Positions 9,424-13,318 of a stretch of 14,951 nt of DNA are shown in pieces. Where the stretch lies: NCBI GenBank assembly GCA_020629335.1, contig JAHDDN010000031.1:1-14951 (forward strand), written 5' to 3'. The first letter of the stretch is position 1. Each line of letters begins with the position of its first letter. The notes under the pieces are model-generated. The model saw only the letters and a program-made list of their open reading frames with translations, made no database searches and was not told the origin of the DNA. The translations under genes were made by a program, and so were the position numbers. This DNA is from Chitinophagales bacterium (GTDB lineage: Bacteria; Bacteroidota; Bacteroidia; Chitinophagales; UBA2359).

Positions 9424-11238
9424 TTAATGTAATATTATTCTTTGGACGACTGTTTTTTGATTGTTAGTAATTCGTAGAAAGAAAACTCCTTTAGTAGAGT
9501 GATCTTTCATTGTGAGTCGGTATTGCGGACCGTTAAACACATCTTCTGTCAGGAGTTGGCCATTGATATTTAGTACTTCAATTTTGCTTTCTCCTTGAAC
9601 TTCGTCTAATTCAATAAAGCACACATCTTCACTTGGGTTAGGGTAGACTTTAACTTGCATGGATTGCTTATTGGTTAAAATTCCCTTTTCGGCATTACTG
9701 AATTCTTCTGAAGTGTAAGCTGCTATTGGAGCATTTTGTAGCATTTGGTTGATCGTGCTATTGACATTGCTTGTTTTGTTACTGCAACTCCAGCTTAATC
9801 TACCAGGCAATTGGTACAAGCTATATTCGGAATAACATTCACCTCCTTCGCAAAGCATATTACCATCGCAATCATACAGATTAGCTTTTGCTCCCCAAGC
9901 ACAGCCTGCTGTATTAGGATAAGCGGGATCAACATAGAAGAAAGAGTAAACTCCATCAGAGTAATGGAAAATTCTATCGACATGGCAGCAATCGCTATTA
10001 TTGATTAAATCTTCCATCCAGAAGAGTTCTTCTACTGGATCGCTTTCGTAGCAATTTGATTCGCATTTATAGTATAAGCCGCTATTGTTGTAGCTCCAAA
10101 GACTGAGATTATAGTAGCAGTTATTATTACTTTCATTTGAGCAGACTAACTCACCATGACAATCATACACTCTTGCTTGGGTAGTTTGTGGACAGCCGTA
10201 TAAGTAAGATGGAGAGATATAGTATAGTATTTCTCCTTCGTTATTTTCATAGTATAAAACGGAGTTGGCTGTACAGCAATCGCTATCTGCTATTATTTCG
10301 TCTAACCAACTTAAGTCTAATGCTTCGCAAGGCTGAGCAACTGCTTGTTCTTCACAAGAACCAGGTAGCCAAGCCATTCCTACGCATTCCGCTAAACAAG
10401 GATTTAAGTAAGTAGAGCCGTCCCCACCACATACAGGATTTGGCGTATCATCACAACCACAAGGTCCTATTGAACCTGGAGCGCATTCCCAAATTAATTG
10501 GGCATCAATATAGTAAGCTAAGTTATAATTTTGGTAGCAATTTGTTCCGTTGTTACTAGTGCAAACTTGATTACCATATTGGTCATAAAGGCGTGCTGCA
10601 CCACCACCACATGAATAGTTATTGGAAGGTTGTACATAATAATAGGCTGTACCTGCTGTTTGATAACGATATACTTTTTCACTATCGCAACAGCCGCCTT
10701 CATCCAAGACTTCTACCAGCCAAGCAGGATAACTTTCTCCTGCTCCAGCATAGGCTGTTTCTTCATTTCCTGTTTCTTCAAAATCGACTGGTGCAGGAGG
10801 ATCACAATTTTCAATGCTAACATCGAAAACGATTTCTTTTATTTCTCCTACCTCAATGATGAATGTCGGATATACTCCTTCGCTATTAGGTAATACTTCA
10901 GGTAATTCTAATCCATATGGAGGATAGTAAGCTCCCATAATAGTAGGGCCTGAGCTACTTGGAGAAGGATCAGGCCCTAATACAACTTCATATTCTGCAT
11001 AAATAAAGGTGTATGAAGTGGTACTTTGAGGAGAAACATAAGTGTGGTCACAGTCACCAATAGAGCACTCCAGACCAGAAAGTGGTGTCCAGTCATAAAG
11101 TATATTTTGCTTGTTAGGATCTAATAATACACTTTCTCCTTCACAAATTGAATATTGCATATTTTGAGCTTGAAGGCTACCTATGCTAATACAAAGTATC
11201 CAAATGGATATAAGTAGAATTTGAGAAGATCGTTTCAT
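9424..11238 (-). CDS. Secreted T9SS-sorted protein with three eight-cysteine repeats and a Kazal-type module
   Basis: A 604-residue exported protein. Residues 1-25 are a signal peptide (cleavage near LQAQ). Residues about 28-80 carry the Bacteroidota ICEGESVLL...TTSYTF element. Three related cysteine-rich domains follow: W173-C252, C304-C392 and C396-C485. Their shared pattern is WL-x2-I-x5-CC, IYxY, YxxP, C, ARLYDC-x-G-xxxC, NCY, LxWxC. Between the first two lies a Kazal-type module (C260-C295, six Cys, core NPVCGGDGSTYLNPC), the fold of many serine-protease inhibitors. Residues about 528-604 are a T9SS sorting domain starting VYPNPSEDV and ending in a basic tail. The first domain lacks both the leading Cys and the Cys of YDC (YDQ here). 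It has the same architecture as the product of 11645-13318, 406 bp upstream, so the two are ancient tandem duplicates. Likely surface-bound or released; function unknown, protease inhibition possible for the Kazal part. Confidence 0.88.
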   Translation of the reverse strand: MKRSSQILLISIWILCISIGSLQAQNMQYSICEGESVLLDPNKQNILYDWTPLSGLECSIGDCDHTYVSPQSTTSYTFIYAEYEVVLGPDPSPSSSGPTIMGAYYPPYGLELPEVLPNSEGVYPTFIIEVGEIKEIVFDVSIENCDPPAPVDFEETGNEETAYAGAGESYPAWLVEVLDEGGCCDSEKVYRYQTAGTAYYYVQPSNNYSCGGGAARLYDQYGNQVCTSNNGTNCYQNYNLAYYIDAQLIWECAPGSIGPCGCDDTPNPVCGGDGSTYLNPCLAECVGMAWLPGSCEEQAVAQPCEALDLSWLDEIIADSDCCTANSVLYYENNEGEILYYISPSYLYGCPQTTQARVYDCHGELVCSNESNNNCYYNLSLWSYNNSGLYYKCESNCYESDPVEELFWMEDLINNSDCCHVDRIFHYSDGVYSFFYVDPAYPNTAGCAWGAKANLYDCDGNMLCEGGECYSEYSLYQLPGRLSWSCSNKTSNVNSTINQMLQNAPIAAYTSEEFSNAEKGILTNKQSMQVKVYPNPSEDVCFIELDEVQGESKIEVLNINGQLLTEDVFNGPQYRLTMKDHSTKGVFFLRITNNQKTVVQRIILH

Positions 11239-11580
11239 AGAAAAAGGTAGTTAGTAGTCAATTAATTGTTAGTAGCTGTTTTAGTCTGAATCTAAAAGAT
11301 ATTCAAAAGTGTGTGGTTTAAACAAGCCATTATGGCCACTTATTAAATGAATTGGGTGAGAGTAAAGTTATATAAAATTAATTAATTTAGTTCATCTTTG
11401 GACAGATATTGTTTGCAAAACACATATTATTAATATAAAAATTCATAAAATAAATTAAAACAATTAATTAGAAATTACGTAAATATCGGAATTGAAAGTG
11501 ACAAATGACGAGTTATGCGTATTACAGGCGGTATTTAAGCATTTTGTTAATAAATAAAGGCATAAATTGGTTTTTGGGGG
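11239..11580. other. Intergenic region upstream of the 9424-11238 gene
   Basis: About 340 bases, very AT-rich, between the gene start and the terminator of the upstream paralogue. It must contain this gene's own promoter, because a strong terminator separates the two genes, but no -33/-7 pair with good spacing stands out. GTTAGTAG occurs twice with an 18-base period (11250-11257 and 11268-11275), just before the start codon. No coding frame was seen. Confidence 0.4.
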
Positions 11581-11627
11581 TATAAAAAAGAAAAGCCCGA
11601 CTATCTTTCTTTGATAGTCGGGCTTTT
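11581..11627 (-). terminator. Strong intrinsic terminator of the 11645-13318 gene
   Basis: A perfect 15-bp stem (AAAAGCCCGACTATC, 11591-11605, with GATAGTCGGGCTTTT, 11613-11627) has a 7-base loop and lies 17 bases past the stop codon. On the minus strand it is followed by a T-rich run (TTTTCTTTTTTATA). It should end the transcript before the downstream paralogue, making the two secreted-protein genes separate units. Confidence 0.92.
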
Positions 11628-11644
11628 GGTAAAATAATTGAATT

Positions 11645-13318
11645 TTATCTTAGCATTAACTTCTCAGTTGTAGATTGGAATTCACTATTGATTCTTACAA
11701 AGTAAATACCTTTTGATTCTTGACTCAAATCAACTGTATGCGTAAATCCTGTCATATCATTACTGTAAATCGTTTGTCCTTTGATGTCAAAGATTTCAAC
11801 ACTTAAGGCTTGTGATTCCTCTTTTCCAAAGAATGCTCTAAGGTTGACGACTCCTTCGCTTGGATTAGGATATAAATCCATTTCTAAGATAATGCTACCA
11901 TATAGGTTCTCATATTCCATTTGGCTAAGACCGTTATCTAATTCATCTTTACTAAAGGCTTCTGCAGGAGCAAATCCTAATAAATAATTAGAACCTCCCC
12001 AAAGTTCGTCTTCTACACTTAGACAATCCCATAATAGAGAACCGGTCATACCTCCTAATCCATACACTTGATAACAGTTTTGGTCGATATCGCTAATACA
12101 AAGCACATTCCCTAAGCAATCATATAAGATAGGGGAGTAACTCGAACAACCATTAGCATCATATGCTGGATCACAATAGAAGAAAGATTGATTGTCGCTT
12201 TGGTACATGTAAATTCTGTTTTCATTGCAGCAATCAGCCTCATCAATTATCGCACCTAACCAAGGCAAGTCGTCTACTGGATCAACAAAATTACATTCTG
12301 GTAAATCGCCGCCACATTCCCAAATGAGGCTACCATTCCATTCATCCAGATTATACATACCCCAACAGTTCGTTGTGACTGTACTTTGACAAATTAAAGC
12401 ACCTTCACAATCATAAATACGAGGCGCATAAGTCATTGGACAACCAAAGTCCCAACCTTCTGCAACATCTACATAAACACAAGCATCAAAGCCATTGGAG
12501 TAGAAATAGATTTTATTGGTATAGCAACAATTAGCATTTGCTATAATATCATCTATCCAGGTAAAATCATTACTATCACAAGTAAGAGGGGAAGTACTGG
12601 AAGGTGCAATGCCACAATCGTGTAAAAGCACTCCAAACATATCCTCTAATTGATAATCAGAATAACAATTTCCTGCACCTGTACAAATTAAGGTACCATC
12701 ACAATCATACAGACGAGCACCATGTTCTAAGGCACAAGGCTCTTCCCAAAATGGCGTAACATAAAAATAAGTATTATCCAAGTCGTAGTAAGCATAGATA
12801 CGAGACTTCTGACAACAATCCTCTTGTAATAGAATATTCTGTAACCAAGGCAATTCATTCAGTGGGTCAGAAGATCCACAGAGACTAGTATTGGTACCTA
12901 TTGGGTTTCCTGTTCCAGTGCCGGTACCAGTTCCAGTTCCAGTTCCAGTTCCAGTTCCAGTTCCAGTTCCAGTTCCAGTTCCTGTACCAGAGCAATCTTC
13001 TACTTCCACTAAGAAAGTAAGTTCCAAATTAGGACTCGTAACTCCGCCTGCTAAAGTAACTGCATAGTTTAACGTATAAAGGGTAGTCTGACTAGGACTG
13101 GCATATGCAGAATAACAATTAGTACAACTTAAGTCGATTGGCGGATCAAAGTATACATAGGTGGCGCCTGGGAAACCATTGGCCACGCCAATTAATACAC
13201 CTTCACCTTCGCAAATAGTATAAGTTTCATCTTGAGCAGACACATCTATAAATACAAGCGTTATCAATACCAAAAAAAGGCACTTTGCTATTGAATTCAT
13301 GTAATTGTTCAGTTTCAT
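11645..13318 (-). CDS. Secreted T9SS-sorted protein with three eight-cysteine repeats and a Gly-Thr linker
   Basis: A 557-residue exported protein paralogous to the product of 9424-11238. Residues 1-28 are a signal peptide (VSAQ site). Residues about 32-108 carry the ICEGEGVLI...TTLYTL element. A linker of 13 Gly-Thr pairs plus Gly (111-137) follows, encoded by a GGAACT hexamer repeat. Three eight-cysteine domains come next: C147-C235, C247-C335 and C342-C432, typified by [33 protein letters not shown] and NCYSDYQL. The second domain has an extra Cys (C280) and so does the third (C382, in YFYC). Residues about 480-557 form the T9SS sorting domain ([13 protein letters not shown] to KLMLR). Unlike its paralogue it has no Kazal module. 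The start at 13318 gives a standard signal peptide; M7 is an alternative. Function is unknown. The cysteine density suggests a disulfide-stabilised extracellular protein on the surface or released through T9SS. Confidence 0.88.
12908..12988 (-). repeat. In-frame hexanucleotide repeat coding for a (Gly-Thr) linker
   Basis: Codons here give (GT)13-G. The central part (12929-12982) is nine perfect GGAACT hexamers, and the edges carry silent changes (ACA, GGC, ACC, GGT). Slippage would change linker length by two residues per step without shifting frame. The linker separates the N-terminal element from the first eight-cysteine domain. Confidence 0.95.

Follow-up and report, generated by a model that had tools for sequence, protein, structure and literature searches.

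A repeated cysteine-rich module in type IX-exported Bacteroidota proteins is a distant relative of DUF6970 and keeps company with Kazal domains

What is the small cysteine-rich module that appears three times in each of two neighboring exported proteins of a Chitinophagales bacterium, and what might it do there? The two proteins, TP1 and TP2, are encoded in the 14,951-nucleotide stretch of DNA that we analyzed (the window), and we call the module, in all six copies, 8C (Table 1). TP2 is composed of an N-terminal region, a low-complexity linker encoded by approximately 14 hexanucleotide copies (TRF), three module copies and a T9SS tail. TP1 consists of an N-terminal region, one module, a Kazal domain, two further modules and a T9SS tail. 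An earlier note on this DNA had proposed that both proteins are sorted by the type IX system, and this is borne out by matches to Por_Secre_tail (PF18962) and TIGR04183 at each C terminus. Its further claim, that the module is confined to exported proteins, comes close to the truth in a wider set: 64 of 67 module-bearing database proteins list PF18962 when counted by eye. Pfam reveals no protease among the window neighbors of TP1 and TP2, and an Rfam scan returned nothing at gathering scores. Another large window protein (208-4272) carries CUB domains (Pfam).

Table 1. Features of the genes for TP2 and TP1, with positions in the window
Feature	Position	Strand	Basis
TP2 gene, 557 aa	11645..13318	(-)	ORF listing; Pfam
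Putative TP2 signal peptide (likely), aa 1-29	13232..13318	(-)	hydrophobic stretch ending SAQ, read by eye from sequence
TP2 Gly-Thr dipeptide linker, aa 110-137	12908..12991	(-)	TRF 12907-12990; translation
TP2 module copy 1	12614..12880	(-)	8 Cys; 61.9 bits
TP2 module copy 2	12314..12580	(-)	8 pattern Cys and a ninth; 58.5 bits
TP2 module copy 3	12023..12295	(-)	8 pattern Cys and a ninth; 70.4 bits; fold predicted
T9SS type A sorting domain, TP2 aa 482-555	11654..11875	(-)	PF18962 1.7e-15; TIGR04183 4.4e-13
TP1 gene, 604 aa	9424..11238	(-)	ORF listing; Pfam
Putative TP1 signal peptide (likely), aa 1-25	11164..11238	(-)	read from sequence
TP1 module copy 1	10483..10722	(-)	6-Cys variant, without C1 and C5 (LYDC Cys); 57.0 bits
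TP1 Kazal-type domain (Cys 260-295)	10354..10461	(-)	Kazal_2 23.1 bits vs cut-off 22.8; infestin 2erw E 6.7e-6
TP1 module copy 2	10063..10329	(-)	8 Cys; 51.0 bits
TP1 module copy 3	9784..10053	(-)	8 Cys; 61.6 bits
T9SS type A sorting domain, TP1 aa 531-602	9433..9648	(-)	PF18962 5.7e-13; TIGR04183 1e-11

All six copies are recovered where they had first been read from the sequence, by a profile built from the 168 collected copies that come from outside the window (51.0-70.4 bits, listed per copy in Table 1; i-E 1e-16 to 8.9e-23 in a search space consisting of the window ORFs only). In 1000 residue shuffles of TP1 and TP2, the same profile found zero matches. Because the collection of relatives was seeded with the window copies, this test is independent in its rows and not in its origin. 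An alignment of the six copies spans 95 columns, with 31-43% identity to the first copy; 13 columns do not vary (W, CC, Y, Y, YD, G, C, C, L, L, C). The description of the module as an eight-cysteine domain holds for five of the six copies if only the pattern cysteines are considered, but exactly eight cysteines are found in just three. We also considered a recent tandem amplification of the TP1 and TP2 copies. This is rejected on the 28-43% identity in the nine pairs measured, on one copy being nearer to a copy from another genome (47%, L125), and on array positions that pair across genomes.

Relatives were reached via a neighboring transporter gene. With the six copies and TP2 as queries, a large set of proteins gave no match at the thresholds used, and TP2 likewise found no relative when genome contigs were scanned by pattern. 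Since relatives do exist, the null result with the large set probably stems from how few exact words are shared and from limits on length in that search. Among PDB sequences, nothing was matched by profile A2 up to an E value of 10, or by the whole protein L142, which bears a C25 domain, up to 0.01. A fold search of a viral set returned nothing at E ≤0.001.

On the six copies, every Pfam and NCBIfam family stays below its cut-off, in line with the earlier note, which recognized no named family in them. The resemblance suggested there, to DUF6970 (PF22311), falls short of the gathering cut-off of 27 bits: three of the six copies match at E ≤10 (best E 0.062), the single listed score for window copies is 13.3 bits, and DUF6970 is absent from the Pfam listing of whole TP1 and TP2 at E ≤1. 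Profile-profile comparison, however, gives a collinear match by hhalign with a score of 80.3 (E 3.4e-15) between 8C and the DUF6970 members of the same lineage (profiles A1 and A3), and of 43.3 (E 1.1e-7) between 8C and classical DUF6970 (A1 and A4); further scores were 83.4 and 44.5, respectively. The controls, 100 column shuffles each and reversed profiles, stayed at or below 20.2 and 24.9. When searched singly, 18 of 93 relatives match DUF6970 (best 4.6e-6) and other families are matched by at most two each. Furthermore, DUF6970 stretches and intermediate forms occur within the same polypeptides as 8C.

The predicted structures point the same way. In the model of TP2 copy 3, the strands and C-terminal helix run E31-37, E40-46, E60-62, E68-71, H78-81 and E88-94, and in the DUF6970 model (pLDDT 74.4, with the N-terminal helices outside the construct) they run E12-19, E22-29, E37-39, E45-47, H64-67 and E72-76, which is the same arrangement as judged from element order. 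Unrelated proteins with convergent cysteine spacing could also fall below the DUF6970 cut-off as the window copies do, but the collinear matches far above both kinds of control, the single-sequence hits concentrated on one family and the common strand order make this highly improbable. The homology is therefore well supported, and the DUF6970 hunch of the earlier note was right: 8C is a distant, unannotated, disulfide-rich branch of the DUF6970 superfamily. As DUF6970 is itself uncharacterized and scores below its cut-off here, the module has no strong match to a characterized Pfam family. Our literature search found nothing on DUF6970.

The model of TP2 copy 3 (pLDDT 93.0, pTM 0.84) predicts an alpha+beta module of approximately 85 residues, with a short helix and a longer helix followed by beta-beta-beta-beta-alpha-beta. 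Together with the covariation of the cysteines, this model gives good support to the proposal of a rigid, disulfide-linked module. C5 is accompanied by C1 in 65 of 66 copies, and again in 28 of 28 additional ones. Loss of C7 and loss of C8 tend to go together, with few copies lacking C7 (10 and 7). We infer that C3-C4 and C1-C5 form disulfide pairs, and these two optional bonds would strengthen a four-cysteine core (C2, C6, C7 and C8). The idea that C1 in copies without C5 is nearly always the last cysteine of an upstream Kazal domain proved only partly correct, because a Kazal motif ends within 34 residues upstream in 20 of 51 such copies and the cysteine is some other one in 31.

The Kazal domain between module copies 1 and 2 of TP1 had been overlooked in the earlier note. 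It clears the Pfam cut-off by 0.3 bit and has the six-cysteine Kazal spacing (Cys 260, 262, 270, 281, 285 and 295). The reactive loop is DDTPNPV, in which P1, by Kazal numbering, is Asp. Pro is at P2', as in only 1 of 61 Kazal loops. With this P1 and P2', trypsin is an unlikely target, and the unusual make-up of the loop suggests that the domain may be a poor inhibitor.

Kazal domains are also prevalent among the relatives. By profile, they are present in 39 of the 46 ORFs that bear 8C, often directly adjoining the module, versus 3 of 81 others (non-shadowed ORFs of at least 200 aa from the same stretches); a strict motif in place of the profile finds them in 32 of the 46. Among database proteins with 8C, 47 of 67 carry a Kazal domain by profile; the T9SS tail aside, no other partner is seen as often. 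Across 20 genomes, the numbers of 8C and Kazal domains are correlated (Spearman 0.68, or 0.59 with genome size held). The TP1 order 8C-Kazal-8C-8C recurs exactly in three relatives (L130, L136 and L140); three others (L128, L129 and L135) have a fourth 8C added to it, and Kunitz domains accompany 8C in one relative protein. Seven of the 46 ORFs (TP2 included) and 20 of the 67 database proteins have no Kazal domain by profile, and some such proteins carry fasciclin, lysyl oxidase, GDSL-lipase, VWA or PKD domains instead, indicating that the module is not tied to inhibition.

In 187 Kazal domains of 8C-type proteins, variability across 26 positions is highest at P1 (3.19 bits) and P1' (3.12 bits), with a narrow lead over the next two (3.11 and 3.09). 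Lys or Arg at P1 is seen in 1 of 122 Kazal domains from 8C proteins compared to 6 of 84 from T9SS proteins without 8C (p 0.019), and in 1 of 195 compared to 38 of 279 when all non-8C Kazal proteins in the match list, which include eukaryotes and other phyla, are counted. Given the narrower difference against the T9SS-only set, the case for a special mark of 8C proteins is weakened, and the near-absence of these residues is mostly a lineage effect. Literature searches found no paper on bacterial Kazal domains, on Kazal in Saprospir-, on Kazal with both type IX secretion and Bacteroidetes, or on prokaryotic Kazal inhibitor domains with horizontal gene transfer; in one of the papers matching Kazal and Bacteroidota (PMC13055281), 'Kazal' is part of an author name.

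We tentatively favor a function in which 8C modules are displayed, disulfide-locked protein-binding units acting together with Kazal heads against extracellular hydrolases that are not trypsin-like, even though the chances of this are somewhat short of even. The modules would be exported by the type IX system and presented one after another, in many proteins immediately next to Kazal domains. The Kazal heads of such a surface or secreted array would occupy extracellular, non-trypsin-like proteases, and the 8C modules would keep the array rigid and protease-resistant while making contacts of their own, specific to each position, with the protein captured or with a partner. Counting against this reading are the 8C proteins that lack Kazal, the borderline TP1 Kazal domain with its unusual loop, the P1 variability that barely exceeds that of other positions and the lack of proteases among the window neighbors. 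Homology, the export signal, the repeat architecture, the Kazal company and the cysteine covariation are results of calculation; surface display and protein binding by 8C are what we infer, and the nature of the ligand is speculative. The 'binding or inhibitory' role offered in the earlier note gains indirect support from the Kazal and Kunitz company, from gene-pair conservation and from a possible, weak similarity to the BLIP/PepSY fold.

The main rival, which is a serious if somewhat less probable contender, is that 8C modules function as spacers, rigid and resistant to proteases, which raise other domains above the cell surface and have no binding partner of their own. Short disulfide modules serve as spacers in animal matrix proteins. 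The compact, confidently predicted fold would suit this role, as would rows of modules with partners as varied as C25, fasciclin, lysyl oxidase and VWA. Moreover, the wider 8C copies keep the core residues and cysteines, yet are just 17-47% identical to TP2 copy 3, and a conserved disulfide core can reflect constraint from the fold rather than binding. Across three gene pairs, however, of which two link different genomes and one lies within a single genome, conservation among the segments compared is highest in 8C (62-77% identity) and in Kazal (70-73%), exceeding the N-terminal and middle regions (47-58%), a DUF6970 stretch (53%), the T9SS tail (45%) and even the carried C25 domain (40%). dN/dS is of no use here, given saturation at synonymous sites in 15 of 16 gene-pair segments. 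Also counting against a spacer is the tree (93 rows on 97 columns, 39 of 90 forks open), in which array positions of genomes G024 and G005 match up individually (three in L130/L136 and two in L127/L134), so that each position keeps its own identity.

Adhesion to a ligand other than a protease, such as a polysaccharide, a prey surface or matrix, with Kazal domains merely protecting the adhesin, is unlikely. It would accommodate the Kazal-less proteins with fasciclin, VWA or PKD domains, arrays of up to nine listed 8C copies in one ORF (L150) and the CUB domains encoded elsewhere in the window, but not so readily the predominance of Kazal among the partners. More doubtful still is an extended proposal wherein 8C and DUF6970 are themselves BLIP/PepSY-like hydrolase inhibitors that, with Kazal and Kunitz domains and in some cases on C25 (gingipain-type) scaffolds with eroded active sites, would form a polyvalent, type IX-exported anti-protease coat whose positions diversified individually within a single Bacteroidota lineage.

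Regarding known systems, 8C may bear a weak similarity to the BLIP/PepSY/DUF2874 (PF11396) fold (PMC2954215). PepSY/DUF2874 is not among the Pfam families listed for the copies and relatives, although they may still have the fold itself. The likeness to DUF6970 extends over the whole module in a collinear profile (W-containing helix, I..Y.Y, VYY, C, LYD..G..IC, C, L-W) and includes the C-terminal helix. Classical DUF6970 differs in that a genome of the phylum sample has just one or two copies, encoded by ORFs of 81-232 aa, and in having CCD and PDGG-GDG motifs; CCD and PDGG-x-G-x-GDG are missing in all six window copies, which instead have CC right after helix 2, a Cys after the last strand and a tandem arrangement. 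Kazal (PF07648/PF00050) is a separate domain, and a Pfam scan reports none of the six copies as Kazal. An unannotated cysteine-rich domain, strongly expanded where present, is now tied to DUF6970, and both are placed beside domains of the protease-inhibitor type in type IX-exported proteins, which provides a testable functional hypothesis for DUF6970. Multi-headed Kazal proteins of animals include ovoinhibitor and LEKTI, and follistatin modules are comparable. Some Bacteroidota carry arrays that resemble these, with Kazal, Kunitz and other small disulfide modules, predicted disulfides included, in rows with Kazal heads, but the partner module is bacterial and different, and the chains end in a type IX export tail.

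The earlier note had placed six copies of a cysteine-rich repeat of about 85 residues (8C, or the module) in two neighbouring exported proteins, TP1 and TP2. This observation is real and correctly located: three copies lie in each protein, all six where they had been put. A profile was built from 168 copies of other genomes, leaving out the window rows of a collection that the window copies had originally seeded; the six score 51.0-70.4 bits against it, and 1000 shuffled versions yielded no match. Absent from the note is a Kazal domain in TP1, with P1 Asp and P2' Pro in its loop.

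Features of the window and of related contig stretches (L handles)
Feature	Position	Strand	Description
TP1 gene	9424-11238	minus	604 aa, exported, type IX sorting domain
TP1 Kazal domain	Cys 260-295 (aa)		between module copies 1 and 2; Kazal_2 23.1 bits (cut-off 22.8); infestin 6.7e-6
TP2 gene	11645-13318	minus	557 aa, exported, type IX sorting domain
TP2 module copy 2	12314-12580		ninth Cys, aa 280
TP2 module copy 3	12023-12295		ninth Cys, aa 382
Hexanucleotide repeat	12907-12990		about 14 copies; encodes Gly-Thr linker of TP2
101-bp tandem repeat	4746-5015		2.7 copies, 98% matches; between transporter and amidase/CUB genes
Transporter gene	5033-6586		74% identity to genes in two Saprospiraceae MAGs
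1354-aa protein near cluster	208-4272		Amidase_2 + CUB domains; no sorting domain reported by domain-family scans
C25 (gingipain-type) module protein	L142:5648-10249		eroded catalytic Cys/His pair
C25 (gingipain-type) module protein	L130:1237-5193		eroded catalytic Cys/His pair
C25 (gingipain-type) module protein	L136:308-4252		eroded catalytic Cys/His pair
Bacterial ORF, 3131 aa	L139:1-9393		11 Kazal_2, 2 Kunitz/BPTI, 3 DUF6970 stretches

Changes in copy number of the hexanucleotide repeat would alter the TP2 stalk while preserving the reading frame. The extra cysteine of TP2 copy 3 sits on the second strand of the predicted model, and a disulfide joining neighbouring copies 2 and 3 through their ninth cysteines is possible.

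The eight pattern cysteines (C1-C8, with CC denoting the C2-C3 region and C5 the cysteine of LYDC) do not vary independently. Among 162 non-redundant, near-full copies, two cysteines in the CC region are accompanied by C4 in 82/82 cases, C4 is missing from 57 of the 80 copies without CC (Fisher 2.4e-25), and C5 is accompanied by C1 in 65/66 (5.9e-12), where both p-values are inflated by kinship among copies. A C1-region cysteine occurs without C5 in 51 copies; 20 of these stand shortly after a Kazal motif, whose final cysteine can explain them, and 31 have another cysteine. Another 239 copies, taken from database proteins, show the same pattern: C5 is accompanied by C1 in 28/28 and missing from all 192 copies without C1 (C1 occurs without C5 in 19), and C4 is present in 12/13 copies with CC versus 18/226 without. 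TP1 copy 1 likewise lacks both C1 and C5. A parallel exists in classical DUF6970 domains, found in small ORFs elsewhere in Bacteroidota, wherein a cysteine replacing the helix Trp is matched by one in the LYD loop in 5/5 rows, compared to 0/6 rows that retain the Trp (the twelfth row lacks that part). A four-cysteine type accounts for 189 of those 239 database copies, so the window's eight-cysteine form represents a heavily cross-linked version.

Within the genome samples searched, the module is narrowly spread yet strongly expanded where present. It occurs at E <= 0.01 in 3 of 17 genomes tried, drawn from 80 loci listed for the transporter gene, and two of these (behind L005 and L066) contain 23 and 48 matches. 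In the family of the L066 genome, 15/20 genomes have a match at E <= 0.001, with a maximum of 43 places per genome. Order and phylum samples gave the module in at least 11/298 genomes (at 1e-6) and at least 1/395 (the centre genome), lower bounds because scoring took in no more than 17 or 13 candidates from each genome. Database searching with a query containing both module and Kazal found the module, in 265 copies, in 67 of the best 120 listed of 232 matches, mostly unnamed proteins. Matches without the module include named eukaryotic Kazal proteins (P0017, P0025 and P0037; apicomplexan, green-algal), a match driven by the Kazal part. An iterated profile over forty contig stretches, window included, collected 174 copies in 46 ORFs of up to 3496 aa, totals that do not represent one pure type since the profile extends into DUF6970-like intermediates and one gene was entered twice (L126/L127 overlap). 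Same-strand pairs resembling TP1/TP2 recur in L128, L140 and L141.

Apart from the type IX sorting domain, Kazal domains are the most frequent company seen for the module. The Kazal profile matches 39/46 module-bearing ORFs versus 3/81 other ORFs of the same stretches (at least 200 aa, none shadowed by a longer ORF), and the strict motif 32/46 versus 1/91 (shadow frames included). Of 94 Kazal motifs in module-bearing ORFs, 47 follow a module by no more than 15 residues or precede one by no more than 30. Among the 67 database proteins, retrieved by a query itself containing a Kazal, 47 have one by profile. Pfam places 13 Kazal_2 stretches in L145 and 11, plus two Kunitz stretches, in L139, whose ORF also has 7 module-profile matches, some maybe coinciding with its DUF6970 stretches. 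Across 20 genomes, module and Kazal counts rise together (Spearman 0.68, or 0.59 when genome size is controlled for). Reactive sites of protease inhibitors are hypervariable, and across 187 Kazals from proteins with the module, P1 (3.19 bits) and P1' (3.12) vary more than any other of the 26 positions, as inhibitors should, albeit by a small lead (next 3.11, 3.09 and 3.04). Ala, Asp, Thr or Glu occupies P1 in 132/195 and Lys or Arg in 1/195, a scarcity that is mostly a lineage effect.

Three gene pairs were compared, two across genomes and likely orthologous by tree (L130/L136, L127/L134) and one within a single genome (L131/L133): modules are 62-77% identical and Kazals 70-73%, versus 40-58% for the other segments compared. 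In L130, L136 and L142, the module protein also includes a fused peptidase C25 domain, which we aligned with 16 other C25 places from the same four genomes, each lacking the module in the stretch examined (some ORFs extend beyond it). In what we take, by the C25 motif, to be the catalytic columns, Cys is present in 15/16 others and replaced by Pro in L142, Ser in L130 and Arg in L136 (where a Cys one place earlier may reflect an alignment shift); His is present in 15/16 others and L142, and gone in L130 and L136. Thus, as judged from sequence, the modules look better preserved than the enzyme on these three scaffolds, and the proteins are possibly pseudo-proteases acting as scaffolds. Four related genomes (G017, G024, G005, G027) have 5 to 10 C25 matches apiece.

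Our tentative first choice among functional readings is a disulfide-locked array on display, wherein Kazal heads would be aimed at non-trypsin-like extracellular proteases and 8C modules are predicted to be binding partners, not mere filler. The binding-partner role is favored because position-specific copies are conserved. We hold this reading loosely because the module occurs without Kazal in 7/46 ORFs (including TP2) and 20/67 database proteins, and because its partners include fasciclin, VWA and lysyl oxidase. These observations leave standing the proposals that the modules are spacers, the main rival and little less likely, or adhesins, which seems unlikely.

The earlier note had also pointed to a distant resemblance to DUF6970, and here the suspicion proved sound. 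No Pfam family passes its cut-off on any of the six window copies, and DUF6970 surfaces for three of them when E values as high as 10 are allowed (best 0.062). Scanned one by one, 18 of 93 relatives match DUF6970 (best 4.6e-6); any other family has at most two matches. DUF6970 stretches lie within the same polypeptides as the module in L145 (six), L127 (five) and L139 (three), all with whole-protein scores over the cut-off, as are matches in 16/20 genomes from the family of the L066 genome. In profile-profile comparison, the six copies score 80.3 (E 3.4e-15) with 21 DUF6970 domains from relatives' genomes; with 12 classical domains, taken from other phylum-sample genomes, they score 43.3 (E 1.1e-7). 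Both values stand far over column shuffles (up to 16.2 and 20.2) and reversed alignments (18.9 and 19.1). A 93-row alignment scores 83.4 with the relatives' domains (shuffles 16.7, reversed 24.9) and 44.5 with the classical ones (shuffles 19.3, reversed 23.2). We are nearly certain of this relationship. Literature on DUF6970 and on bacterial or Bacteroidota Kazal proteins yielded no description of the module. Because genomes with classical DUF6970 (20/395 of the phylum sample besides the centre) have one or two copies each, housed in ORFs of 81-232 aa, the lineage seems to have made a repeat module from a small single-domain protein, a direction of change that we infer. The module belongs to a known, uncharacterised family, of which it forms a divergent branch, and is not a new kind of system.
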